NCBI RefSeq assembly: GCF_016862515.1
Contig: NZ_BONC01000006.1
Coordinates: forward strand, 62,001 to 126,000
Direction: 5' to 3'
DNA length: 64,000 bases
From: Asanoa iriomotensis
GTDB taxonomy: Bacteria > Actinomycetota > Actinomycetes > Mycobacteriales > Micromonosporaceae
A model generated the notes under the pieces. It was not told the DNA's origin, did no database searches, and saw only the letters and a program-made list of their open reading frames with translations. Position numbers and translations under genes: made by a program. Shown here in pieces: positions 6,720-34,209 of this stretch; within the stretch, counting starts at the first letter, position 1, and the number at the start of each line of letters is the position of its first letter.

Positions 6720-9302
6720 ATGGCAAGCTGGGGTGATCCGGCCGCGCAACCCATGATCAACAACCCTGATCGTCGGTTGCGCATCTTCATCTCGTCGGCA
6801 CTCGACGAGCTGGAGGAGGAGCGGCTCGCGGTGCGGGACACCATCGCCCGGATGCGGCTGGTCCCGGTCATGTTCGAGCTCGATGCCCGACCGCCGGTCA
6901 ACCCCGACGTCTACCGCGCCTACATCGACGAGAGCCAGCTCTTCATCGGCATCTACGGCGAGAGCTACGGCTGGGTCGGGTCCGACTCCGAGCGCTCCGG
7001 GCTCGAGCAGGAGTTCCGCGCCGCCGGCGACCTGCCCAAGCTCATCTACGTCAAGAGCCCGGCGAACGGCCGTGACCCGCGGCTGGTCGCGCTGCTCGAC
7101 CGCATCCGCCACGACGCCCAGGTGAGCTACCGGCGCTTCCACTCGGCCGACGAGCTGCGCCGGGTCGTCGGCGACGACGTCGCGCTCCTGCTCACCGAGA
7201 GGTTCAACCCGGGCACCCCCGCGCCGCCCGAGAACGCGACCCGCACCCCGCTGCCGGTGCCACCCAACGCGCTGCTCGGCCGGGACACCGAACAGCGCGC
7301 CCTGACCGACCTGCTGACCCGTGACGACGTGCGGCTGGTCACCCTCACCGGCCCGGGCGGCGTCGGCAAGACCCGGCTGGCCCTGCAGCTCGGCGCGACA
7401 CTGGGCCCGACCTTCGCCGACGGGGTCGCGTTCGCCGACCTCTCGGCGGTCACCGACCCCGACTCGGTCGGCATGGCGATCGCCACCTCGCTCAACCTGT
7501 GGACGATGCCCAACCAGTCGGCCATCGACAACGCGGTCGCGTACCTGCGGGACCGCTCGATGCTCCTCGTGGTCGACAACATGGAGCACCTCACCGACGC
7601 CGCCACCGTGATCAGCACGATGCTGGACACCTGCCCGCGCCTGCGGGTGCTCGCGACCAGCCGCGTCCCCCTCCGCCTGACCGGCGAGCACGTCTTCGAC
7701 GTCCCGCCGCTGGAGATCCCGGACCCGCTGGAGGACCCGCGCAGCGCGGTCAGGCACGGCGCCGCGCAGCTGTTCGTCGAGCGCGCCCGGGGCGTACGGT
7801 CCGACTTCCGGCCCGACGGCGACGGTGCGGCCGCCATAACAGAGATCGTCCGCCGGCTCGACGGCCTGCCGCTGGCGATCGAGCTCGCCGCCGCCAAGGT
7901 CCGGGTGCTGCCGCTGTGGGTCCTCGCCGAACGGCTCGAACGCGGGCTCGGCACGCTGACCGGCGGCGCGCGCGACCTGCCCGCCCGGCAGCGCACGCTG
8001 CGCGACACGATCGCCTGGAGCTACCAGCTCCTGCGGCCGGAGGAGCAGCGGACCTTCGCCCGGATCGGGGTGTTCTCGGGCGGCTTCGACCTCGACGCCG
8101 GCAGCGCGCTGGTCGACACGGCCGACCGGTACGCCGCCCTCGAGACCTTCACCGCCCTGATCGAGAGCAGTCTGGTGACCCAGGACGTGCGGGGTCCCGA
8201 GCCGCGCATGGCGATGCTCGCCACCATCCGCGAGTTCGCGCTCGACCGGCTCCGCGAGGACTTCGACTGGGCCGAGACGCACGAGCGGCACGCCCGCTAC
8301 TACCTCGCGTTCGCCGAGGCGGCCGCGCCGCCGGTCGGCCAGACCTCCACCGACCCGGCGGCGGTCGACCTGCTCGCGGCCGAGCACGACAACCTGCGCG
8401 CGGCGATCAACTGGTTCATCGACCACGACGAGATGGACCAGGCGGTGCGCCTGGGCTGGATGCTCTGGCCACTGTGGTGGCTGCGCGGGCACATCGACGA
8501 GGGCGCCCGGACCGTCCGGCGGATCCTCGAGCACGCCGACTCGATGTCACCGGGGGCGTACGCGCACGCCCTGTTCGGCGACGGCGCCATCGCCTTCCTC
8601 AGCGGCGACGGGGAACACGGCCGCGTGCAGCTCGAACGGGTCCTGCCGCTGCTGCGCGAGCTGGGCGACCAGGACGTCAACGCCCGGGCCGCCGGCATGC
8701 TCGGCCAGCTCGCGCTCGCCCGCGGCGACTACCCGCAGGCCCGGGCGCTGCTCGGCGAGACCAAGCAGATCAGTGAGCGGATCGGCGAGCTGTGGATGGC
8801 CGCGCTCTACCACACCCGGCTCGCGCTCGTGCCGCTCAACGAGGGCGACTACGCCGCGGCCGCCGAGCAGTACGCCGACGGGCTGCGGGTCGCCCGCAAG
8901 ACCGAGGACCACCTCGGCGAGGTGGTGGCGCTCTACAGCCTCGCCGTCACCGCGGTCGCCGCCGGCGACGAGCCGGGCGCGGCCGGCTACCTCGCCTCGG
9001 GGCTGCGCCTCTCGGCCGCCGCCAGCGACCAGGCCGGCAGCGCGACCTACCTGGAGGCGCTCGCGGACCTCGCCGTGCGTGCCGGCGACCCGGGCCGGGC
9101 GGTGCGGCTGACCGCGGCCGCGCGCAAGCTGCGCGCCTTCGCGGGCACCGCGTGGATGCAGGCGTACGTGCCACCGTGGCCGCACGGCGCCGCCCCGATC
9201 GACCTCGACGCACCGGAGTACGCACGGGAGCGCGCCGACGGAGCAGGGGAAACCATGGCCGCCTCGGTCGCGTACGCCCTGGACGGTCTATCGCCCGCGT
9301 AG
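6720..9302 (+). CDS. DUF4062 - NB-ARC - TPR STAND protein, copy 1
   Basis: 860 residues. An N-terminal DUF4062-type domain (RLRIFISSALDELEEERLAV to the VALLLTERF region, about 15-165) is followed by a STAND NTPase: P-loop GPGGVGKTRL at 211-220, Walker B LLVVDNMEHL, and the ATSRVPLRLTGEH sensor region. The C-terminal 350 residues are TPR-like helical repeats (ARAAGMLGQLALARGDYPQA, YHTRLALVPLNEGDYAAAAE). There is no DNA-binding domain or membrane span, so it is a cytoplasmic ATP-dependent switch of unknown output. The first in-frame start after a stop is ATG at 6720. A paralogue of similar length and layout is at 31603-34209. The 3' end overlaps the convergent MocR gene by 15 bp. Confidence 0.88.
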   Translation: MASWGDPAAQPMINNPDRRLRIFISSALDELEEERLAVRDTIARMRLVPVMFELDARPPVNPDVYRAYIDESQLFIGIYGESYGWVGSDSERSGLEQEFRAAGDLPKLIYVKSPANGRDPRLVALLDRIRHDAQVSYRRFHSADELRRVVGDDVALLLTERFNPGTPAPPENATRTPLPVPPNALLGRDTEQRALTDLLTRDDVRLVTLTGPGGVGKTRLALQLGATLGPTFADGVAFADLSAVTDPDSVGMAIATSLNLWTMPNQSAIDNAVAYLRDRSMLLVVDNMEHLTDAATVISTMLDTCPRLRVLATSRVPLRLTGEHVFDVPPLEIPDPLEDPRSAVRHGAAQLFVERARGVRSDFRPDGDGAAAITEIVRRLDGLPLAIELAAAKVRVLPLWVLAERLERGLGTLTGGARDLPARQRTLRDTIAWSYQLLRPEEQRTFARIGVFSGGFDLDAGSALVDTADRYAALETFTALIESSLVTQDVRGPEPRMAMLATIREFALDRLREDFDWAETHERHARYYLAFAEAAAPPVGQTSTDPAAVDLLAAEHDNLRAAINWFIDHDEMDQAVRLGWMLWPLWWLRGHIDEGARTVRRILEHADSMSPGAYAHALFGDGAIAFLSGDGEHGRVQLERVLPLLRELGDQDVNARAAGMLGQLALARGDYPQARALLGETKQISERIGELWMAALYHTRLALVPLNEGDYAAAAEQYADGLRVARKTEDHLGEVVALYSLAVTAVAAGDEPGAAGYLASGLRLSAAASDQAGSATYLEALADLAVRAGDPGRAVRLTAAARKLRAFAGTAWMQAYVPPWPHGAAPIDLDAPEYARERADGAGETMAASVAYALDGLSPA

Positions 9303-25706: not shown

Positions 25707-25742
25707 GCGGGGGTGTGCGCTGCTCGGGGCGCACGCCCCCGC
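25707..25742 (+). terminator. Strong hairpin terminator after the P450-cyclase pair
   Basis: GCGGGGG and GTGCGC (25707-25720, with one T between them) pair with GCGCAC and CCCCCGC (25729-25742, with one G between them). That is a 14-bp stem including one G-U pair and an 8-base loop. It starts 15 bp after the stop codon. No clear T run follows. Confidence 0.75.
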
Positions 25743-25760
25743 GGCGCGTTTCCAGGGCGT

Positions 25761-26423
25761 TCACCGCGGCAGGACAGCAAGTCGGGGTAGACCCGGTCCG
25801 CGGGAGACGCGCGCAGCGTCGGCGACCGGCGGGTGGATGGCCGCATCTGCAGGCCGATCGGCCCCATCCCGCGTGCTGGACAGCGCCTCGATGGCCCGGG
25901 CCAGCAGCGCCGAGGGCATGGTTGATCCGCCGCTTGATGCCGCGCCCGCCGCGCCCGTGGCCATCATCGGCGGACCGCCGGCACCTACCAGGTCCAGGCA
26001 GGTGACGTATGGGCCGGGCGTGAAGTCGCGCAGCTGCCGGCCGAGCAGATCCGCCAGCGCGTTGTGGCCAGCCACTTTGCCGAGCGGCGTCGCGTGCGGG
26101 CAGGCCCGCATCACCGCGTGTTCGAGGTCGAACGCCGCCGCGCCGGCGTCGCCGGACACGAACCCATGCCGTGAGCTAGCGGCGCGGGCCGGGCTCGACG
26201 ATGTCGCCCGCGACGATCTCGCCCACGATCACCGGACGCGGATCGGCGTCGCGGCGGTGACCTCGGGTACCGCGGTGCGGAGGTGCAGGTCGACCGGCAC
26301 CCGGCCGAGATGGTCGAGCTCCGACCAGGTCGGATCGGTCCTCCAGCAGCATCCGGCCCGCGCGGCGAGCGCGGTCGCGGCCTCCAGGCCGACGAACCCG
26401 GCTCCCACGACGACGGCCGCTTA
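25761..26423 (-). pseudogene. Decayed NAD(P)/FAD-dependent oxidoreductase (NADH-dehydrogenase-like)
   Basis: No full-length frame exists, but pieces of one family appear in order on the minus strand in different phases. First VVVGAGFVGLEAATALAARA (near 26415-26350), a pyridine-nucleotide fold. Then, after a shift, GDAGAAAFDLEHAVMRACPH, followed by ATPLGKVAGHNALADLLG and YVTCLDLVGAGG. Near the end comes AAIHPPV. These match the C-terminal half of Ndh-type enzymes. The front is missing: the sequence begins right at the NrtR stop. I read it as truncated and frameshifted. Linkage to an NrtR regulator suggests it once belonged to an NAD-related unit. Confidence 0.7.
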
Positions 26424-27128
26424 GCTGCCGGTTGGCATCAGCATGGGCGGATGCAGCAGGGAGGCGTCGCCGCGGCGGTACAACTCGGCCGGACGACCTC
26501 CGTCGCGCGTCGTCCGTCGACCGGTCGGCTCGAGGAAACCCGGGGCTCGCGTGATCTTCCGGTGGAAGTTCCGCGGATCGAGTTTGGTGTTCCACACGAC
26601 CTCGTACACGTTTCGCAGCTCTGTGATCGTGAATTCCTTGCCGCAAAAGGCCGACGCCAAAGAGGTGTATTCAAGCTTGGAACGCGCTCGGTCCAGCCCG
26701 TGTCGCAGTATTTTCCGATGGTCGAACGCGAGCGCCAGCTGACCGGAGACTATCGAGTCGATCGCCATCCACCGCGCCGCCCGAGCATCGGTTCCGGCAG
26801 TGGGAAGCGGGAGGTCGGGCGCAAGTGCCAGATAGGCCACCGTCACAACCCGATCCCGCGGATCCCGTTCGGGATCTCCGAACGCGCCCAGTTGCTCCAG
26901 GTGGAGTTCTTCTGCCCCGAGGCCGGTCTCTTCGCGCAGCTCACGACGCGCGGCGTCCTCAAGTGGCTCATGCCGCCCCACAAAGCCCCCGGGCAATGCC
27001 CAAGTGCCGGCGTACGGCGGGATCCCTCGTTCCACGATGAGTGCTGACAGCGCACCGTCAAGGATCGTGAAGATCACCAGGTCGACTGTCACGCACATCC
27101 GGTCCGGAACCCAGCCATCGTCGATCAT
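26421..27128 (-). CDS. NrtR-type Nudix transcriptional regulator
   Basis: 235 residues. Residues about 15-140 are a Nudix domain with an intact Nudix box, GFVGRHEPLEDAARRELREE ending TGL. The C-terminal part is the winged helix typical of NrtR (EFTITELRNVYEVVW, LDPRNFHRKITR). NrtR proteins repress NAD-metabolism genes and respond to ADP-ribose or related compounds. An intact box leaves hydrolysis possible. The gene is divergent from the nucleotide cassette. TACACT ends 7 bases before the ATG and no ribosome binding site is present, so its message is probably leaderless. Its stop abuts the oxidoreductase pseudogene. Confidence 0.88.
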   Translation of the reverse strand: MIDDGWVPDRMCVTVDLVIFTILDGALSALIVERGIPPYAGTWALPGGFVGRHEPLEDAARRELREETGLGAEELHLEQLGAFGDPERDPRDRVVTVAYLALAPDLPLPTAGTDARAARWMAIDSIVSGQLALAFDHRKILRHGLDRARSKLEYTSLASAFCGKEFTITELRNVYEVVWNTKLDPRNFHRKITRAPGFLEPTGRRTTRDGGRPAELYRRGDASLLHPPMLMPTGS

Positions 27129-27136
27129 GACTTGAG

Positions 27137-27185
27137 TGTAGACCTAATCGTCAGGTTGACATGAAGACTCGTTCCGGAGTAGCGT
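27137..27185. promoter_or_regulatory. Divergent promoter with inverted-repeat operator between NrtR and the cassette
   Basis: TGTAGACCT (27137-27145) and AGGTTGACA (27153-27161) form the inverted repeat TGTNNACCT-N7-AGGTNNACA. Its right arm contains the -35 TTGACA (27156-27161) of the rightward promoter, whose -10 is TAGCGT (27180-27185) at 18-bp spacing. Its left arm overlaps the leftward -10 TACACT (27140-27135), which predicts a start at the NrtR ATG. One bound repressor would block both directions. Confidence 0.7.
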
Positions 27186-27434
27186 GCTCACTTAGTGTCA
27201 GAGTGACGCGAAGGCGCCGTGGCGTTTCGAGTTCTCCAGCGAGAGCGAGCCAGCACAGACACTGTCGGATCCCGGACATGGCATGTGAGCTTCACTGAGA
27301 GGAGCCACCAGTACGCTCCTAGCCCTAACGGGTAAAGCGTGTTGCCCTGTAGGAAAGATCCAATCGAAAGATAGCCCGATTCCTGCTCGCCTCCCGTTGA
27401 CTCGGGCGGCGCCACGTCGTTTTAGGAGACAGAC
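27186..27434 (+). promoter_or_regulatory. Long untranslated leader of the nucleotide cassette
   Basis: No gene is visible in these 249 bases. The predicted start is near 27192, giving a leader of about 240 nt. It holds a palindrome ACATGGCATGT (27276-27286), a small CCCTAACGGG hairpin, and AGGAG six bases before the GTG at 27435. A weaker second promoter (TTGACT 27397-27402, 17 bp, TTTTAG) is possible. Nothing matches a riboswitch I know. Confidence 0.4.
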
Positions 27435-27917
27435 GTGCAGGTGGCGATCATCGGCAGTTTCAAACAGCACTACTCGGCTGTGCGCGAGGCGCTAGCGAGC
27501 TTTCGTAGGGCCGGGATCGAGGTGACTACCCCCAAGGGGGCAGAGATCCAGGAGGAGGGAATCGCTTTCGTGCGATTCCACAGTGATCCTCCTGAATGGG
27601 ACGACTCGACCGTTCAGACTATCGCGTTGCATCGGATCTTGCGCGCCGACGCGGTTTACGTCGTTGCCCCGGGTGGCTATGTGGGTCGCACCACGTGTTA
27701 CGAAATCGGACGCATCTTCCAGGCTGCTCGGCCGATCTACTTCAGTGAACACCCCGACGACCTGCCCGTCGCAATACCTGGCACCCATATCGTCGCACCC
27801 ATTGATCTGGTGAAGCTAATTCTGACCGGCAACGCCTCATCGCCATTCGCGGCAGAGGACTCGACCTATCTCTCACTTGAGCGACGGTTGCTAACGGGAG
27901 ACTACTCGTATGACTGA
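27435..27917 (+). CDS. Nucleoside 2-deoxyribosyltransferase-like protein 1
   Basis: 160 residues from GTG with AGGAG upstream. It opens VAIIGSFKQHYSAVREALAS and has a central ILRADAVYVVAPGGYVGRTT followed by CYEIGRIFQAARPIYFSEHP. The D-A-V-Y-V, G-Y-x-G and following Glu pattern is that of the nucleoside deoxyribosyltransferase fold, in which the Glu attacks the sugar. Relatives include deoxyribosyltransferases and DRHyd-type nucleotide hydrolases of conflict systems. It is first in a five-gene cassette with clearly AT-richer codons than its surroundings and overlaps the next gene by 8 bp. Activity on a base-sugar bond is inferred. Confidence 0.72.
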   Translation: MQVAIIGSFKQHYSAVREALASFRRAGIEVTTPKGAEIQEEGIAFVRFHSDPPEWDDSTVQTIALHRILRADAVYVVAPGGYVGRTTCYEIGRIFQAARPIYFSEHPDDLPVAIPGTHIVAPIDLVKLILTGNASSPFAAEDSTYLSLERRLLTGDYSYD

Positions 27918-28413
27918 GACTTCGGCCGAAACCGCGGCGGCAGCCGGATTTCAAGAGAAGGATGGGCGCGGTCGCATCGTGCTCTGTGGATCAATGAAAG
28001 CAATATCAACGATGGAGGTCATCGGCCGTGAGCTGATGAGCCAGGGCATCACTGCGCTGGTTCCGCACAGGGACGATCCGCTGCTCGAAACTCAGGCCGA
28101 AGCGGTCCTGCGGGACGGGAAACACCGGGCATCTAAGCTGCATATGTCCTGGATCGTCGACCCGGCCACGAGGGCCATCCTCATTGTGAACCCGCACCGG
28201 GAGGGCCAGCCCGACTACATCGGACCGAATGCTTTCGGTGAGGCTGCGGTGGCGTTCGCGACCGACCGCCGCATCTTTTTGCTCAACGGAATTCCCGCGA
28301 ACTTCGAGGAAGAGCTGTCGGCGTGGCGGGCGCGCTGTCTCTACGGCGATCTTCGACCCGTTATCGGCTTCTTCAGATCAGGCCACGCCGAGCGCAGCGA
28401 AGGTAGGCCCTGA
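27910..28413 (+). CDS. Nucleoside 2-deoxyribosyltransferase-like protein 2
   Basis: 167 residues. After about 20 polar residues it starts IVLCGSMKAISTMEVIGREL, then TRAILIVNPHREGQPDYIGP and NAFGEAAVAFATDRRIFLLN. The CGSM start, N-P strand end, and YIGPNAFGE segment with a candidate catalytic Glu are the same fold as protein 1, but the sequences are clearly different, so they are not a recent duplication. The ATG lies inside the preceding gene (ATGACTGA overlap). Two non-identical members in one operon may form a heteromer or act on different substrates. Confidence 0.7.
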   Translation: MTETSAETAAAAGFQEKDGRGRIVLCGSMKAISTMEVIGRELMSQGITALVPHRDDPLLETQAEAVLRDGKHRASKLHMSWIVDPATRAILIVNPHREGQPDYIGPNAFGEAAVAFATDRRIFLLNGIPANFEEELSAWRARCLYGDLRPVIGFFRSGHAERSEGRP

Positions 28414-28452
28414 CTCATCAGCAGACTCCAAACTTGAGCGGAGAATCGCGTA

Positions 28453-28908
28453 ATGGCACAGGCGTCCTCCGCGGCCCCCACGGTAGGGGTCGGCGTGTTT
28501 GTGTTCTGGAACGGCACGTTCCTCATGGGGAAGCGCCGTGGGGCGCACGGCGCCGGCACGTGGTCAGTGCCCGGCGGCCACCCAGAATTCGGCGAATCGT
28601 TCGAGGAAACTGCGCAGAGAGAGGTCCAGGAGGAGACGGGCGTTCTTATCAGGAACATACGATTCGGAGCCGTCACGAACGACCTGTTCGATGTTGAGGG
28701 AAAGCACTACGTAACAATCTGGATGCTTAGCGACTATCGTTCCGGCGAGCCAACGATCACCGAGCCGGACAAATACGACTCACAAGGGTGGTATGACTTC
28801 TCAACGCTGCCTGACCCTCTGTTCCTTCCGTGGAGGCAGCTTCTCCGGTCGACATTCATCAGCGATATCCGGGCTCAGCTGGAGAGCAGCGACAGGGCTC
28901 GCAGATGA
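28453..28908 (+). CDS. Nudix hydrolase
   Basis: 151 residues with a complete Nudix box: GHPEFGESFEETAQREVQEE then TGV, about residues 40-62, carrying the metal-binding glutamates. The front WSVPGGHPEFGE and the tail LPDPLFLPWRQLLRS resemble the MutT/NUDT15-like branch acting on nucleoside di- or triphosphates. GGAG lies 9 bases before the ATG. It is the third gene of the cassette and overlaps the nucleosidase gene (ATGA). It would hydrolyse a nucleotide made or cleaved by its partners; the substrate is unknown. Confidence 0.9.
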   Translation: MAQASSAAPTVGVGVFVFWNGTFLMGKRRGAHGAGTWSVPGGHPEFGESFEETAQREVQEETGVLIRNIRFGAVTNDLFDVEGKHYVTIWMLSDYRSGEPTITEPDKYDSQGWYDFSTLPDPLFLPWRQLLRSTFISDIRAQLESSDRARR

Positions 28909-30776
28909 GTGGAGGCGAGTCGGCGTCCGAAACACCGAGGCGGAACGCCGGAGTGAACCAACCTCTATATCTTCATTTCCTCGACCGCGAACTCGTGGAA
29001 GCCGCGGGGGCGGAGCTCCAGCCGAGCACGTTGGAGAGGTCACTGGCCGCGCTCACCCTCGGAACTGACGCGGGCCTCTATTGCGGCATCTCGGTAATTT
29101 GGGAGCATACCCTACTGAGCGATGCGTCGCGAAGAATTCTCGCGATGCTCGTTGCTGGTGGCGCAATCCGACCTATCAGCTACAGCGCGACGGTCGAGGA
29201 GTTCTTTGAGTCTCGGATACAGTTGTATCGACATGACGCGGCGAGGTATCCGCTATATTTCCACAACGGAATCGATGCCGTCAGGTCGATCCTTCCCACG
29301 GACTACAAGGCCGAGCGAACAACTGACTATTTGCAGGAGAGGCTAGGTGGCTGGTCCCTGTCAAAAGCGTCTCAAGGGAGCGAAGCTGAACGCATTGCTC
29401 GCACGAACGCGTTGCAGGCGCTGACGCGGAGGGACTCCGAAGCAATCACTTTTGCTTTCTTCGCACCATTTATGAGAAAGAGTGGAGTTCAATCCTTCGA
29501 AGCCGAGTCGATACTCAGCAGGCAGATATCGGCGCAGTACGCCGGCCACTATCTCAAGTTCTCGGACGGCGACATCCCAACCGGTGTCGATGGGCTCGGG
29601 TACTTCGACCAGGTACTTGCAACCAACTTCCCGATGTACGACGTGCCGCTGCTCAAGAACATATTGTCGGCAAGCGGATTCACCGCGCTGCTTCGGACGC
29701 CGATGTTGCAGCGTCTCGATGATTGGCAACTCCTGCTGGAACTGAGAGGCTCCGGTGTGCACGCCCGCATGGTCAGCCTCGTTCGTCTGCTCGTGTGGAT
29801 CGCGTGCCGCTCCGTCGAGGGCAGCGCGGGTGCGTCCAACACCTTCGCCATCCGTCACAAGGTGTGGGAGTTCGCTCGACGGTACCTGCACTCTCCAAAT
29901 GAAGGGCGCGGCAACGACGCTGTTCTCGCGCGACTGGATTCTGCGGAACAGGCTTTGCTCGCAACCATTGGGCGGCTCTCTCGCGTCCCGGCCCTGACTT
30001 CTGACGTCGAACTGGGGAGGCAGCTGTTGCTGGACTATGGCGCCGACGTTCTTATTGTCACCGCTACCCGTGTGGAAGCGCGCGCGGTCATTGACACGCT
30101 GACCGCTGACCACGGATCTGTCGCTAGACCTCATTTTATCGGAGACAAAACCTACTTTGACCTCGGAACGATCTCTGGCGCACGCGTCTACCTCACACAA
30201 ACCGAGATGGGGAGCGGAGGGCCGTCGGGCTCGATCCTCACCATCGTCGACGCCATATCGGCGCTGGGCCCGGCATCGGTAGTCATGGTCGGCATCGCCT
30301 TCGGCATCGATGAGCACAGCCAACAGATAGGGGACGTGCTGATTTCGCGCCAGGTTGCCAGCTACGACCTGCAAAGGGTGGGTACCCAATCGGGGAGAAG
30401 AAAGATCGTCTTGCGCGGAGACCGCACTACCGCGTCGCCGCGGCTCCTGGACCGCTGCCGCGCCGCGGCCTTGGATTGGAATCACTGCCCGGTTCATTTC
30501 GGGCTGGTGATGTCGGGCGACAAGCTGGTTGACAATCTTCGGTTCCGGGACGAGCTCGTTCGCCTCGCGGGCGGTGAAGCCGTCGGCGGCGAAATGGAAG
30601 GTGCGGGCCTCTACGCTTCGGCACACCGCCGCAAAGTTGACTGGATCCTGATTAAAGGAATATGTGACTGGGCGGACGGGAACAAAGACATGATGATCGC
30701 CGAGAGGCAACTGAATGCCGCTATGAACGCGGCACGTTTTACATCGCATTTGCTGGGAAAGGGCGGCTTCGCCTGA
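28905..30776 (+). CDS. Nucleosidase/phosphorylase-superfamily protein with large uncharacterised N-terminal region
   Basis: 623 residues from ATG 28905 (ATGA overlap with the Nudix gene; an upstream start at 28830 is unlikely). Residues about 380-615 form a PNP/UDP-phosphorylase and MTA/SAH-nucleosidase domain: DVLIVTATRVEARAV, VVMVGIAFGID, GGEMEGAGLY with ribose-binding Glu565, and GICDWADGNK with candidate catalytic Asp588. Residues 1-379 (LYLHFLDRELVEAAGAELQP onward) match nothing I recognise; they are mostly helical, soluble and lack a P-loop. Nucleosidase domains fused to sensor regions occur as effectors in bacterial conflict proteins. Codon use is AT-richer than in flanking genes. Confidence 0.82.
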   Translation: MSGGESASETPRRNAGVNQPLYLHFLDRELVEAAGAELQPSTLERSLAALTLGTDAGLYCGISVIWEHTLLSDASRRILAMLVAGGAIRPISYSATVEEFFESRIQLYRHDAARYPLYFHNGIDAVRSILPTDYKAERTTDYLQERLGGWSLSKASQGSEAERIARTNALQALTRRDSEAITFAFFAPFMRKSGVQSFEAESILSRQISAQYAGHYLKFSDGDIPTGVDGLGYFDQVLATNFPMYDVPLLKNILSASGFTALLRTPMLQRLDDWQLLLELRGSGVHARMVSLVRLLVWIACRSVEGSAGASNTFAIRHKVWEFARRYLHSPNEGRGNDAVLARLDSAEQALLATIGRLSRVPALTSDVELGRQLLLDYGADVLIVTATRVEARAVIDTLTADHGSVARPHFIGDKTYFDLGTISGARVYLTQTEMGSGGPSGSILTIVDAISALGPASVVMVGIAFGIDEHSQQIGDVLISRQVASYDLQRVGTQSGRRKIVLRGDRTTASPRLLDRCRAAALDWNHCPVHFGLVMSGDKLVDNLRFRDELVRLAGGEAVGGEMEGAGLYASAHRRKVDWILIKGICDWADGNKDMMIAERQLNAAMNAARFTSHLLGKGGFA

Positions 30777-30822
30777 CAGGCATTCGGCTGTCCGACTTAC
30801 TGATTCTTACTCGGAGACGCAG

Positions 30823-31218
30823 ATGGGCAACCGGCGGCATGGCGTGGCGGCACTGTGGTACGACGGTGGGAGCGAGCTGGCCACAACTGCTCTCGATAGG
30901 TTGAAGCGAGACTACGGTGAGTGTCGTGATCTAGCCGAACGGTCAGTTCCTGACTGCTGCGAAGTGGCCCTTGAGCAAGGTTCTGTGGCAGTAGCCGTTA
31001 CCTCCGAGCGATCAGCATGGCTTGCGTTTCGCCTTCTTTCCAACATGGTCGATCGCTCAGATCCTGACGTTTTGGTTATTGTTACGCTAAATCCTGACCA
31101 GCTGTCCAAGACTCTCCAGGCGGGCCCGGACGGCCCGGCAGTCGCAGGCCTCCTATCCGTCGGACGGCTGACGATCTCCGACATCCTTCAGAAAGGCGAC
31201 CCGCTCGATCTGCCCTGA
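30823..31218 (+). CDS. Hypothetical protein, last gene of the nucleotide cassette
   Basis: 131 residues; ATG preceded by GGAGACGCAG. It reads GVAALWYDGGSELATTALDR, then CCEVALEQGSVAVAVTSERS and DPDVLVIVTLNPDQLSKTLQ, ending ISDILQKGDPLDLP. The pattern suggests a small alternating alpha/beta protein with no membrane span or known motif. It has the same strand and AT-rich codon style as the cassette, 46 bp after the nucleosidase gene, so I treat it as part of the operon. I do not recognise the family. Confidence 0.6.
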   Translation: MGNRRHGVAALWYDGGSELATTALDRLKRDYGECRDLAERSVPDCCEVALEQGSVAVAVTSERSAWLAFRLLSNMVDRSDPDVLVIVTLNPDQLSKTLQAGPDGPAVAGLLSVGRLTISDILQKGDPLDLP

Positions 31219-31229
31219 GGTGAGGCCCG

Positions 31230-31391
31230 CTACCCGGTGAGCGACGCGGCGGCGTGCGGCAGGGCGTCCACCTCCGCGGGCGCGAGGCCGACGGTCGCCG
31301 ATCGTGTCCATGCGGGGGAGACAGCGAGGCCGGCGCCGTCCACCTCGACGATCCGGATCTCGTCGGGAGGCAGGCCCGGTGGTGACGTGAG
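31230..31391 (-). pseudogene. Possible gene remnant in the 384-bp gap before the second STAND gene
   Basis: The 31219-31602 gap has no complete gene. GC content returns to the high level of the chromosome here, marking the right edge of the island. On the minus strand a 54-codon open stretch without a start reads LPPDEIRIVEVDGAGLAVSP and ends ALPHAAASLTG at a TAG. It looks protein-like and could be the tail of a lost gene, but nothing identifies it. The last 100 bp are upstream sequence of the STAND gene. Confidence 0.25.
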
Positions 31392-31602
31392 TCACCGCCG
31401 CCCTGGTGACGCTGGGCTCTTTAGCGGCCACCAGTTCTTCGGATGTCCATCTGGTTCGCCTCCGAATCCGGATAATTCCCAATATCCATCCCGCTGATGG
31501 GGCATGACATCCAACCGAACTGCGTTCCATGAAGAGATCTCGTTTGGGATCCCGGGCCGACGCTTCCGAGCGTCGCGGGCCCAACCCGAGGAGGACACCG
31601 GA

Positions 31603-34209
31603 ATGCTCGACCCGGCCGGCGCAGCGCGGGTCATCCTGACGCCGGACCAGCGGCTCCGGGTGTTCGTGAGCTCGACGCTCGCGGAGCTCGCGGCCGAGCG
31701 GCAGGCGGTCCGGGAAGCCGTGGTCGGCCTGCGGCTCCAGCCGATCATGTTCGAGGCCGGTGCCCGCCCGCATCCGCCGCGGGAGGTGTACCGGTCGTAC
31801 CTCGCACAGAGTCAGATCTTCGTGGCGATCTACGACGAGAGCTACGGGTGGGTCGCGCCCGACATGACGATCTCCGGGCTCGACGACGAGTACCGCCTCG
31901 CCGCCGGCATGCCCCGGCTGATCTACGTCAAGGAGCCGGCGCCCGGCCGGGACCCCCGGCTCGGCGCGTTGCTGGACTCGATCCGCCGCGCCGGTGATGT
32001 CACCTACCGCCGGTTCGAGTCCGCCGAGGAGCTGCGCGGGCTCGTCGAGCAGGACATCGCCGTGCTGCTCTCGGAACGCTTCCAGCGCACGGGCCGGCCC
32101 GCCGCGCCGGAGTCCGGGGCCGAGCGGCCGGGGGACGAGCGCCTCCCGGTGCCGCGCACCCTGCTGCTGGGCCGCGAGGACGAGCTGGAAGAGCTGTCCG
32201 CCCTGGTCCGCGAGGAGCAGGTGCCGATGGTGACCCTGGCCGGACCGGGTGGCGTCGGCAAGACCCGGCTGGCCGCCGCGGTCGCCGAACGCGTCGCCGA
32301 GGACTTTCCCGACGGCGTCCGCTACGTGGACCTGTCCGCGGCCACGGGGCTCGACGCGGTCGGCGAGGCGTTCGCCCGCTCCCTGCGGCTGCGCACCTCC
32401 GGCGGCGTCCGCTCGCTGGACGACACCGCGTCGTTCCTGCGCGCCAAGCGGATGCTGCTCGTCGTCGACAACTGCGAGCAGGTCAGCGGCATCGCACCGC
32501 ACCTGGCCACCCTGCTGCGCGCCGCGCCCGGCGTGACCGCGCTGACGACCAGCCGCGCGCCGCTGCGGCTGACGGCCGAGCGGGTCTTCACGGTGCACCC
32601 GCTGCGCACGGCGCCACGCACCGCCCGCGCGGACTCGGCCGCGCTAGCCGAGCGGTTCAGTGCCGTCCAGCTCTTCGTTGACCGCGCCCGGGCCGCGGAC
32701 CGGCGGTTCATGCTGACCGACGCCAACGCCGGGCCGATCCTGGAGATCACCCGCCGGCTCAACGGCGTGCCGCTGGCCATCGAGCTGGCCGCCGCCCGGG
32801 TGCCGATCCTGCCGCCCGCGGCCATCGCCGCCCGCCTCGACGACCAGCTCAGCCTGTTGACCGGCGGCCCGCGCGACCGGCCCGCGCGGCAGCGCACGCT
32901 GCGCGACACCCTCGCCTGGAGCTACGACCTGCTGCCGCCGGACGCGCAACGGCTGTTCGCCTGGATCGGCGCGTTCGCCGGCGGTTTCGACCTCGCGGCC
33001 GTCGACGCCGTCGGCGGCGCGGAGGTCGACGTGCTCGGGGCGCTGGAGTCCCTTGTGGACGCCGCCCTGGTCGACCGGGACGACGACGGCGAGCCGGCCC
33101 GGTTCCGGGTGATCGACAGCGTCCGGGACTTCGCGCAGGAGCGGCTCGACGCCCGCGCCGACCGCGACGAGGTGCGGGGCCGCCACGCCGAGCACTACCG
33201 CTCCGTCGCCGCGGCCGCGGAGCCCTACCTCAACACCTCGGCGTCACCGGACTGGCTGCGACGCCTCGACCGCGAGCACGGCAACCTCGACGCCGCCATG
33301 AACTGGTTCCTCGACCAGCGCCGGCCCGCGGACGCGTTCCGCATCGCCTGGTCGATCTGGCCGCTGTGGTGGCGCCGCGGCTACCTCGACGAGGGCGTGC
33401 GCTACATGCGCCGCATCCTGGCCGAGCCCGACCTGCTGACCCCGGCCGTGCGCGCCCGGGCCCTGGTGTCGGACAGCGCGATGGCACTGGTGTCGCGGCA
33501 GCCCGAGCACGCGCGGGCGGGGTTCGAGGAGGCCCGGGTGCTGGCCCACGCGGAGGGCGACAAGATCGCCGAGGCCCGCGCGCTCGGCCCGCTCGCCTCC
33601 TTCGCGGCACAGCGCGGCGACTTCGACCGGGCCCGCGAATTGCTCCGGCAGGCGTACGACCTGGCCGTGCGTACCGACGAGCACTGGTTGGTGAGCCTGT
33701 TCCACAGCCGGCTCGGCACGGTCGCGCTGCGCACCGGCGACCTCGACACCGCCGCGCTGCACCTGGCGGAGGCGCAACGGATCTCCTCCCGCGTCGGCGA
33801 CGATCTCGGGCTGGTCGTGGCCCGCTACACCGCCGCGGTCGTCGGCGTCGCCCGGTCCGACGTCGCCGGCGCGCACGCGAGCCTGCGGGCCGGGCTCGCC
33901 TCGGCCGCCGACAGCGGGGACCTGGCCAGCGTCGGGCTGTTCCTCGCCGCGCTCGCGGACCTGGAGAGCGCCCGGGGCCGGTACGTGCGGTCCGTGCGGC
34001 TCGCCGCCGCCGCGGGCACCTTCCAGACGCCGTCGAGCATGCTGTGGATGGAGGGCTACGTGCCGCCCTGGCCGTCCACGGGTCTGGACCACGAGACGCT
34101 GCGCGGCCACCTCGGCGGCGACGGCTTCGACCGCGCCTGGCGGGAAGGCGAGCGCCTGGGCCTGCGCGGCGCGGTCGAGGAAGCGGACCGGGAGGACGCG
34201 CTGCGCTGA
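31603..34209 (+). CDS. DUF4062 - NB-ARC - TPR STAND protein, copy 2
   Basis: 868 residues from ATG 31603, chosen because GAGGAGG lies about 8 bases upstream; an in-frame ATG at 31504 lacks one. Layout equals copy 1: DUF4062-type domain (RLRVFVSSTLAELAAERQAV to IAVLLSERFQ), P-loop GPGGVGKTRL with Lys220, Walker B LLVVDNCEQV, TTSRAPLRLTAERVF, and a TPR-like C-terminus (EARALGPLASFAAQRGDFDR). Both end in a conserved MEGYVPPWP or MQAYVPPWP segment. No catalytic effector is evident apart from DUF4062. It sits between the island and the PKS operon and ends at a perfect GGAACGGTCCGTT hairpin. Confidence 0.88.
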   Translation: MLDPAGAARVILTPDQRLRVFVSSTLAELAAERQAVREAVVGLRLQPIMFEAGARPHPPREVYRSYLAQSQIFVAIYDESYGWVAPDMTISGLDDEYRLAAGMPRLIYVKEPAPGRDPRLGALLDSIRRAGDVTYRRFESAEELRGLVEQDIAVLLSERFQRTGRPAAPESGAERPGDERLPVPRTLLLGREDELEELSALVREEQVPMVTLAGPGGVGKTRLAAAVAERVAEDFPDGVRYVDLSAATGLDAVGEAFARSLRLRTSGGVRSLDDTASFLRAKRMLLVVDNCEQVSGIAPHLATLLRAAPGVTALTTSRAPLRLTAERVFTVHPLRTAPRTARADSAALAERFSAVQLFVDRARAADRRFMLTDANAGPILEITRRLNGVPLAIELAAARVPILPPAAIAARLDDQLSLLTGGPRDRPARQRTLRDTLAWSYDLLPPDAQRLFAWIGAFAGGFDLAAVDAVGGAEVDVLGALESLVDAALVDRDDDGEPARFRVIDSVRDFAQERLDARADRDEVRGRHAEHYRSVAAAAEPYLNTSASPDWLRRLDREHGNLDAAMNWFLDQRRPADAFRIAWSIWPLWWRRGYLDEGVRYMRRILAEPDLLTPAVRARALVSDSAMALVSRQPEHARAGFEEARVLAHAEGDKIAEARALGPLASFAAQRGDFDRARELLRQAYDLAVRTDEHWLVSLFHSRLGTVALRTGDLDTAALHLAEAQRISSRVGDDLGLVVARYTAAVVGVARSDVAGAHASLRAGLASAADSGDLASVGLFLAALADLESARGRYVRSVRLAAAAGTFQTPSSMLWMEGYVPPWPSTGLDHETLRGHLGGDGFDRAWREGERLGLRGAVEEADREDALR

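Follow-up and report, generated by a model that had tools for sequence, protein, structure and literature searches.

The window analyzed here is a stretch of 64,000 nucleotides (nt) from Asanoa iriomotensis (contig NZ_BONC01000006.1, positions 62,001 to 126,000), whose genome has a size of 8.57 Mb. Its segment 26421-31218 contains a gene for an NrtR-type regulator that is divergent from five genes located together on the plus strand (27435-31218). Genes A and B code for proteins resembling nucleoside 2-deoxyribosyltransferases (NDT), and they are followed by a Nudix hydrolase gene, a nucleosidase gene (C) and a gene for a small protein (D). On balance, we favor the view that these six genes form a horizontally acquired cassette that acts in nucleotide-based conflict, most likely against phages. 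The features are as follows.

25750-31566 (ends approximate), no strand: inserted segment carrying the cassette, from alignment with four congeners, the fifth being without the cassette
26421-27128, minus strand: NrtR-type regulator with a Nudix domain and an NrtR winged helix (Pfam, Nudix box)
27129-27434, no strand: intergenic region, expected from its position to hold divergent promoters and an operator (predicted)
27435-27917, plus strand: gene A, NDT-like N-glycosidase-type protein (conserved Glu90, annotated NDT relatives)
27910-28413, plus strand: gene B, predicted NDT fold (structure model, Glu111)
28453-28908, plus strand: Nudix hydrolase with an intact Nudix box (Pfam NUDIX)
28905-30776, plus strand: gene C, 'LHFxD' N-terminal domain and nucleosidase domain (about 30048-30755, PNP_UDP_1)
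30823-31218, plus strand: gene D, orphan small protein (open reading frame (ORF) without matches)

A first-pass annotation of this DNA had proposed an AT-rich operon, four of its genes co-translated, divergent from an NrtR-type repressor. Its genes were found at or near the positions it gave, and its family assignments (an NrtR-type regulator, two unlike NDT-like proteins, a Nudix hydrolase, a nucleosidase with an unknown N-terminus and a small unknown protein) stand, with small corrections. The regulator is indeed divergent, but at 26421-27128 it lies just outside the span of 27129-31218 that had been given for the system. The operon is AT-rich relative to the window (GC content 0.71), but its genes are themselves at 0.59-0.62, with 0.64 for NrtR. 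A and B overlap by 8 bp, and the Nudix gene and C overlap by ATGA, provided that C begins at ATG 28905, which is a more probable start than GTG 28830, where the mechanical ORF begins. However, there is a gap of 39 nt between B and the Nudix gene and one of 46 nt between C and D, which leaves two overlapping pairs and not four coupled genes, so that the claim of four-gene co-translation was overstated.

Judged from base composition and synteny, the cassette is a foreign insert acquired horizontally, because its GC content at third codon positions (GC3) is low compared with the flanks and because it is absent from this place in all five congeners. GC3 is 0.606-0.737 in the six cassette genes, whereas it is 0.914-0.960 in the flanking genes for a P450, a cyclase, a DUF4062 protein and an FAD monooxygenase, the last of which is present in all five congeners (82-92% identity). 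In four of these (G005, G001, G004 and G003) the cyclase gene leads straight to the DUF4062 gene without the cassette, and the alignment jumps from window 25720-25750 to 31566-31627 with 54-117 unaligned bp between. In the fifth (G002), the stretch retrieved lacked the cassette and also the DUF4062 gene. No match to A was found anywhere in the five congeners at 1e-5, and G002 had one weak NDT-like match elsewhere (9.9e-8) with one internal stop. From these alignments, the insert entered a polyketide cluster that was already in place, next to a DUF4062 gene already resident there. We considered this gene as a member of the cassette and rejected it, since four congeners have it without the insert. 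It codes for a DUF4062-NB-ARC-TPR protein (31504-34209), as does a second gene at 6720-9302 (DUF4062 E 4e-18 and 9e-19, respectively); four congeners have the former conserved next to their polyketide genes, and in two of these it aligns to two consecutive stretches. Between the cyclase and NrtR genes (25761-26408), minus-strand short ORFs look by eye like pieces of a broken FAD/NAD oxidoreductase, and two of these pieces had no Pfam match.

Neither A nor B had a match in Pfam (PF05014 included), NCBIfam or PADLOC at E 0.1. A is 31% identical over 121 positions to plasmid proteins annotated as nucleoside 2-deoxyribosyltransferase (L019 and L020), and its Glu90, which we take to be the candidate NDT nucleophile, is invariant in all 16 aligned sequences, two of which carry this annotation. 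Sequence similarity and the conserved Glu place A in the NDT superfamily. The Streptomyces plasmids concerned (L018-L020) share a cluster of uracil-DNA glycosylase (UDG)-like, NDT-like, AMP-binding and ketosynthase genes, possibly a pathway for a nucleoside-containing natural product. For B, an NDT fold is predicted from structure models (three input sequences), the best of five having a pLDDT of 66.8 and the other four 40-46. When the best model was compared with Foldseek, 15 of the 17 top PDB matches were NDT, DNPH1 or CMP N-glycosidase chains and two were YtoQ; the top match was 8pqp (E 4.7e-4, TMq 0.56). Glu111 of B was invariant in 3 of 3 sequences. Hmmsearch against PDB sequences yielded nothing for A and only a chance-level match to a ribosomal protein for B, and A and B could not be related to each other by their profiles (probability 1.3%, not significant).

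The Nudix hydrolase (Pfam NUDIX, 2e-20) has the intact box GHPEFGESFEETAQREVQEETGV. In C, Pfam PNP_UDP_1 matched residues 407-642 of the GTG-start ORF (1.2e-23), and this region holds the motifs TATRVE, EMEGA and CDWAD, which presumably bear catalytic residues. The N-terminal part of C had no Pfam match, and the AlphaFold model of the protein had a pLDDT of 35. The best named models for C were methylthioadenosine/S-adenosylhomocysteine (MTA/SAH) nucleosidases (64 bits versus a cut-off of 169). The purine nucleoside phosphorylase (PNP) domain also matched PADLOC effector models (PDC-M60C, PN-superfamily effector, PDLC00759). A nearly full-length homolog of C was detected in Rhizobium etli (L061; 35% identity over 603 positions), and its neighbors were a possible FAD-type gene (weak, 0.028), an HD gene, a DNA methylase and a small P-loop-type gene. 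D had no match in Pfam, NCBIfam, PADLOC, PHROGs or plasmids, and among 17 genomes only itself was found.

We scanned genome contigs with A using exact short peptide patterns, so further relatives may exist, and found three loci. In Aromatoleum diolicum (L003), A, B and C are contiguous and located between pglZ and brxD of a bacteriophage exclusion (BREX) locus (PglZ 894 bits, BrxD 669 bits), which also contains BrxC, the end of PglX and BrxHI. The overlap of A and B is likewise 8 bp, and the GC content of the trio is 0.44-0.51 versus 0.65-0.67 for PglZ and BrxD. In Magnetospirillum UT-4 (L004), A, B and C are again contiguous, close to the contig end. The third locus, in a deltaproteobacterial metagenome-assembled genome (L002), has A without B, downstream of head-tail and tail genes and upstream of QueH, and 4 of its 6 scanned proteins match PHROGs. 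A prophage context as a general rule for A was rejected, as it was seen only at this locus.

The N-termini of C are also shared across loci (hhalign E 3.3e-6, probability 88%, about 100 residues); this homology was revealed by profile comparison, aided by the R. etli homolog, and tblastn with C of the window failed to reach the C proteins of Aromatoleum and Magnetospirillum at 1e-3. In one further genome (G1324, L064), a protein consisting of the C N-terminal domain alone adjoins an NDT-like gene (DUF7768 6e-9; PF05014 1.2e-4, under its cut-off) and an FAD oxidoreductase. These three genes form an insert (L064, 8794-11876) that is flanked, by eye, by genes resembling ftsW and murD. Of 298 genomes from the window's order, two carried the N-terminal domain of C, one of these being the window's own. 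It was detected in none of 289 alphaproteobacterial genomes, a set that included no genome known to match; plasmid scans with the C N-termini of L003 and L004 gave no result. A was similarly rare: it was present in 2 of 101 related genomes (the window's own counted), in 3 of 396 genomes of the phylum (two of them weak), in 2 of 299 genomes around Aromatoleum (one weak) and in 1 of 289 around Magnetospirillum, which was the centre genome itself. The first-pass annotation had suggested searching genome collections for co-occurrence of these families with NrtR. Such recurrence was found for A-B-C, for A with NrtR and for the C N-terminal domain, but the complete six-gene set was found only in the source genome.

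The linkage of A to NrtR was evident within the window's family, where 27 of 300 genomes matched A at 1e-6 and eight, including the window's, matched below E 1e-30. An NrtR-type gene was fused or adjacent to A in all eight close relatives, seven from the window's family and one from a Streptomyces plasmid: the two were fused in L007 (the plasmid), L043, L045, L046 and L047 and directly adjoining in L044, L048 and L049. L046 and L047 are near-identical, so this pair counts almost as one. Of 11 Nudix or NrtR sequences that were checked, nine had an exact Nudix box and two (L043 and L048) did not. As a control, 12 weak NDT-like loci (L030-L041; from 19 weak matches, the other seven being without a locus) were examined, and none had an NrtR match within about +/-1.5 kb. 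Beyond this range, an ORF ~3.4 kb from a weak NDT-like gene (L052) matched NrtR at 1.8e-5; this match did not reappear in a tblastn search. Directly upstream of the fusion gene, three loci encode a small membrane-type protein of 71-75 amino acids (L045 7399-7614, L046 7091-7318 and L047 6962-7189), and these proteins are alike in sequence by eye.

The regulator of the cassette matched both NUDIX (7e-20) and NrtR_WHD (7.1e-17) in Pfam and has an intact Nudix box. It scored 128.7 bits on the curated equivalog NF050029 of NCBIfam, under the cut-off of 400. NrtR and Nudix families are able to handle ADP-ribose. No recognized NAD biosynthesis or salvage gene was detected among the operon genes (Pfam and NCBIfam, operon only). 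The same genome contains a second NrtR-type gene (G000:C78; 56% identity over 219 positions), beside which no NAD gene was noticed by eye. An imperfect palindrome, GTAGACCTAATCGTCAGGTTGAC, was spotted by eye at 27138-27160 and is a candidate operator only; its pattern, picked after the sighting, was not found upstream of the eight related A-NrtR loci, and no promoter-like match was found in the intergenic region 27129-27434.

The combination of nucleotide-cutting-type enzymes with a sensor-type regulator, together with a distant relative of the core inside a BREX locus, suggests that this is probably an undescribed defense cassette. The first-pass annotation had proposed a nucleotide-centred conflict system, and this interpretation gains partial support from the insertion into the polyketide cluster, the A-B-C trio in the BREX locus and the A-NrtR fusions. 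Gene content, foreign origin and insertion, the presence of A-B-C in two other lineages, the A-NrtR linkage and the conserved motifs can be read from the sequences themselves. As to regulation by NrtR, its ligand, the substrates of the enzymes, a phage trigger and the outcome for the cell, we infer the following scheme. NrtR would hold expression of the operon low, and it would leave the DNA once the level of an ADP-ribose-type nucleotide goes up in infection or upon breakdown of NAD. A and B, each with its conserved candidate catalytic Glu, might next either cleave a nucleotide or produce one. C, acting through its own N-terminal domain, would use its nucleosidase domain to remove the base of a purine nucleotide, thereby starving the infected cell, and the Nudix enzyme could hydrolyze a nucleoside-diphosphate product for signal reset or detoxification. 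The BREX-embedded trio is the strongest hint of function; the scheme is weakest in what it assumes for the ligand of NrtR and for the substrate of C.

Several observations weigh against a defense function. The cassette of the window sits in a polyketide cluster and not in a defense island, and only one of the three A-B-C loci lies in a recognized defense locus. At the phage-like locus L002, the two proteins nearest A had no phage match; A had no match in 50,697 phage records, and nothing was found when viral contigs were scanned for A, B and C by short peptide patterns, which reach close relatives only. C of the window shares only 18-22% identity with its counterparts in Aromatoleum and Magnetospirillum, the full-length homolog in R. 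etli has no match to A or B beside it, and the MTA/SAH nucleosidases that are the best models for C are housekeeping enzymes, though the scores are far under the curated cut-offs. Furthermore, tblastn detected B, C or D in none of the eight close A-NrtR loci, and by eye these loci show no defense neighbors; A-NrtR may thus be an ordinary regulator. In addition, the NrtR part of the L045 fusion is split over two frames, and this copy may be broken or misread. The first-pass annotation had regarded unlinked occurrence of these genes as contrary to its proposal, and such occurrence was seen in part, with close A relatives in the window's family that lack B and C.

A nucleotide salvage or damage-sanitation operon, in which modified or damaged nucleosides are recycled by the NDT-like, Nudix and nucleosidase enzymes under NrtR, would account for the enzyme content, as every family occurs in such pathways, the structures that B matches best are those of NDT and DNPH1, and MTA/SAH nucleosidase models are the best for C. 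We nevertheless consider it unlikely: A is patchily distributed even among related genomes, the base composition is foreign and the insert clean, a relative is embedded in a BREX locus, and C carries a large extra domain beyond the nucleosidase match.

More doubtful still is a role of the cassette in clearing the ADP-ribose products of a nearby NADase, for example the resident DUF4062-NB-ARC protein, in which case the cassette would not be the effector. The insert directly precedes the DUF4062-NB-ARC-TPR gene. DUF4062 proteins are reported to be TIR-like NADases that release ADP-ribose (PMC13174449, preprint), and NrtR proteins are described as handling ADP-ribose (PMC9503650, section 3.8). 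However, the DUF4062 gene occurs without the insert in four congeners, and no DUF4062 was found among the eight L003 proteins scanned. Participation in a nucleoside-containing secondary metabolite pathway appears the least probable, because, in spite of the location within a polyketide cluster (ketosynthases, cyclase, P450) and the distant A relatives in the clusters of the Streptomyces plasmids mentioned above, all five congeners retain the cyclase and FAD monooxygenase genes in the absence of the cassette, A and its plasmid relatives share 25-28% identity, and the scanned neighbors of the Aromatoleum trio are BREX genes.

Within the favored reading, a nucleotide-conflict cassette, we compared the locus with known systems. 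It resembles PNP and NDT defense effectors, but, judged from the cassette genes, is not a member of Detocs, retrons or the NAD-biosynthesis NrtR regulon. The partners in Detocs are sensor kinase and receiver genes. C is similar to the effectors of Detocs and Cap17-type PNP-effector systems in that a PNP_UDP_1 domain is fused to a larger N-terminal part and matches PDLC00759, but no kinase or receiver family is present among the six genes (Pfam, NCBIfam, PADLOC), the N-terminus of C lies outside Pfam, and the partners are NDT-like. In Detocs, the PNP effector is an ATP-cleaving enzyme (PMC11249213), and PF01048 is found across defense systems (PMC10952713). In Retron-Eco1, a type II retron, an NDT-like protein serves as the effector (PMC12405507), and its filaments hydrolyze NAD+ according to the title of a study in the reference list of PMC12548924; the cassette, in contrast, has no reverse transcriptase family among its six genes (Pfam) and combines two different NDT-like proteins with a nucleosidase.

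The regulator shares Nudix and NrtR_WHD domains and a divergent orientation with NrtR regulators of NAD metabolism, but its operon has no recognized NAD biosynthesis gene, it scores under the NF050029 cut-off, and its close homologs are fused to or located beside NDT-like domains. Predicted conflict systems with ADP-ribosylglycohydrolase (ARG), regulated by Nudix or WYL proteins, likewise have proposed NrtR-like Nudix regulators (PMC9503650), but no ARG, Macro, NADAR or phosphatase family is found among the six genes (Pfam). As for BREX, one homologous A-B-C trio is embedded in such a locus, but the cassette genes themselves gave no match to the BREX core models (PADLOC).

In the literature searched, which had most subscription papers outside its reach, we found no description of this gene set. 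Each family is known by itself; what appears to be undescribed is their combination, along with the fusions of A to NrtR and the N-terminal domain of C. It is conceivable, though we put this forward only tentatively, that the cassette represents a new antiphage or conflict class, in which two NDT-fold N-glycosidases and a nucleosidase effector, bearing a so far undescribed recognition domain, move between distant bacteria and have also entered a BREX locus. In the window's lineage this class would be placed under an ADP-ribose-type Nudix repressor, which elsewhere is directly fused to the same NDT-like domain, such that the maker of the signal and its sensor may be one polypeptide. If the favored reading is true, the cassette would be a compact addition to nucleotide-centred immune systems, in which a single operon joins NDT-like enzymes to a PNP-type effector. 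The NDT-NrtR fusion proteins may then couple the making or cutting of a nucleotide to transcription, and the N-terminus of C, a domain without a Pfam match, could be used as a probe for more such systems.

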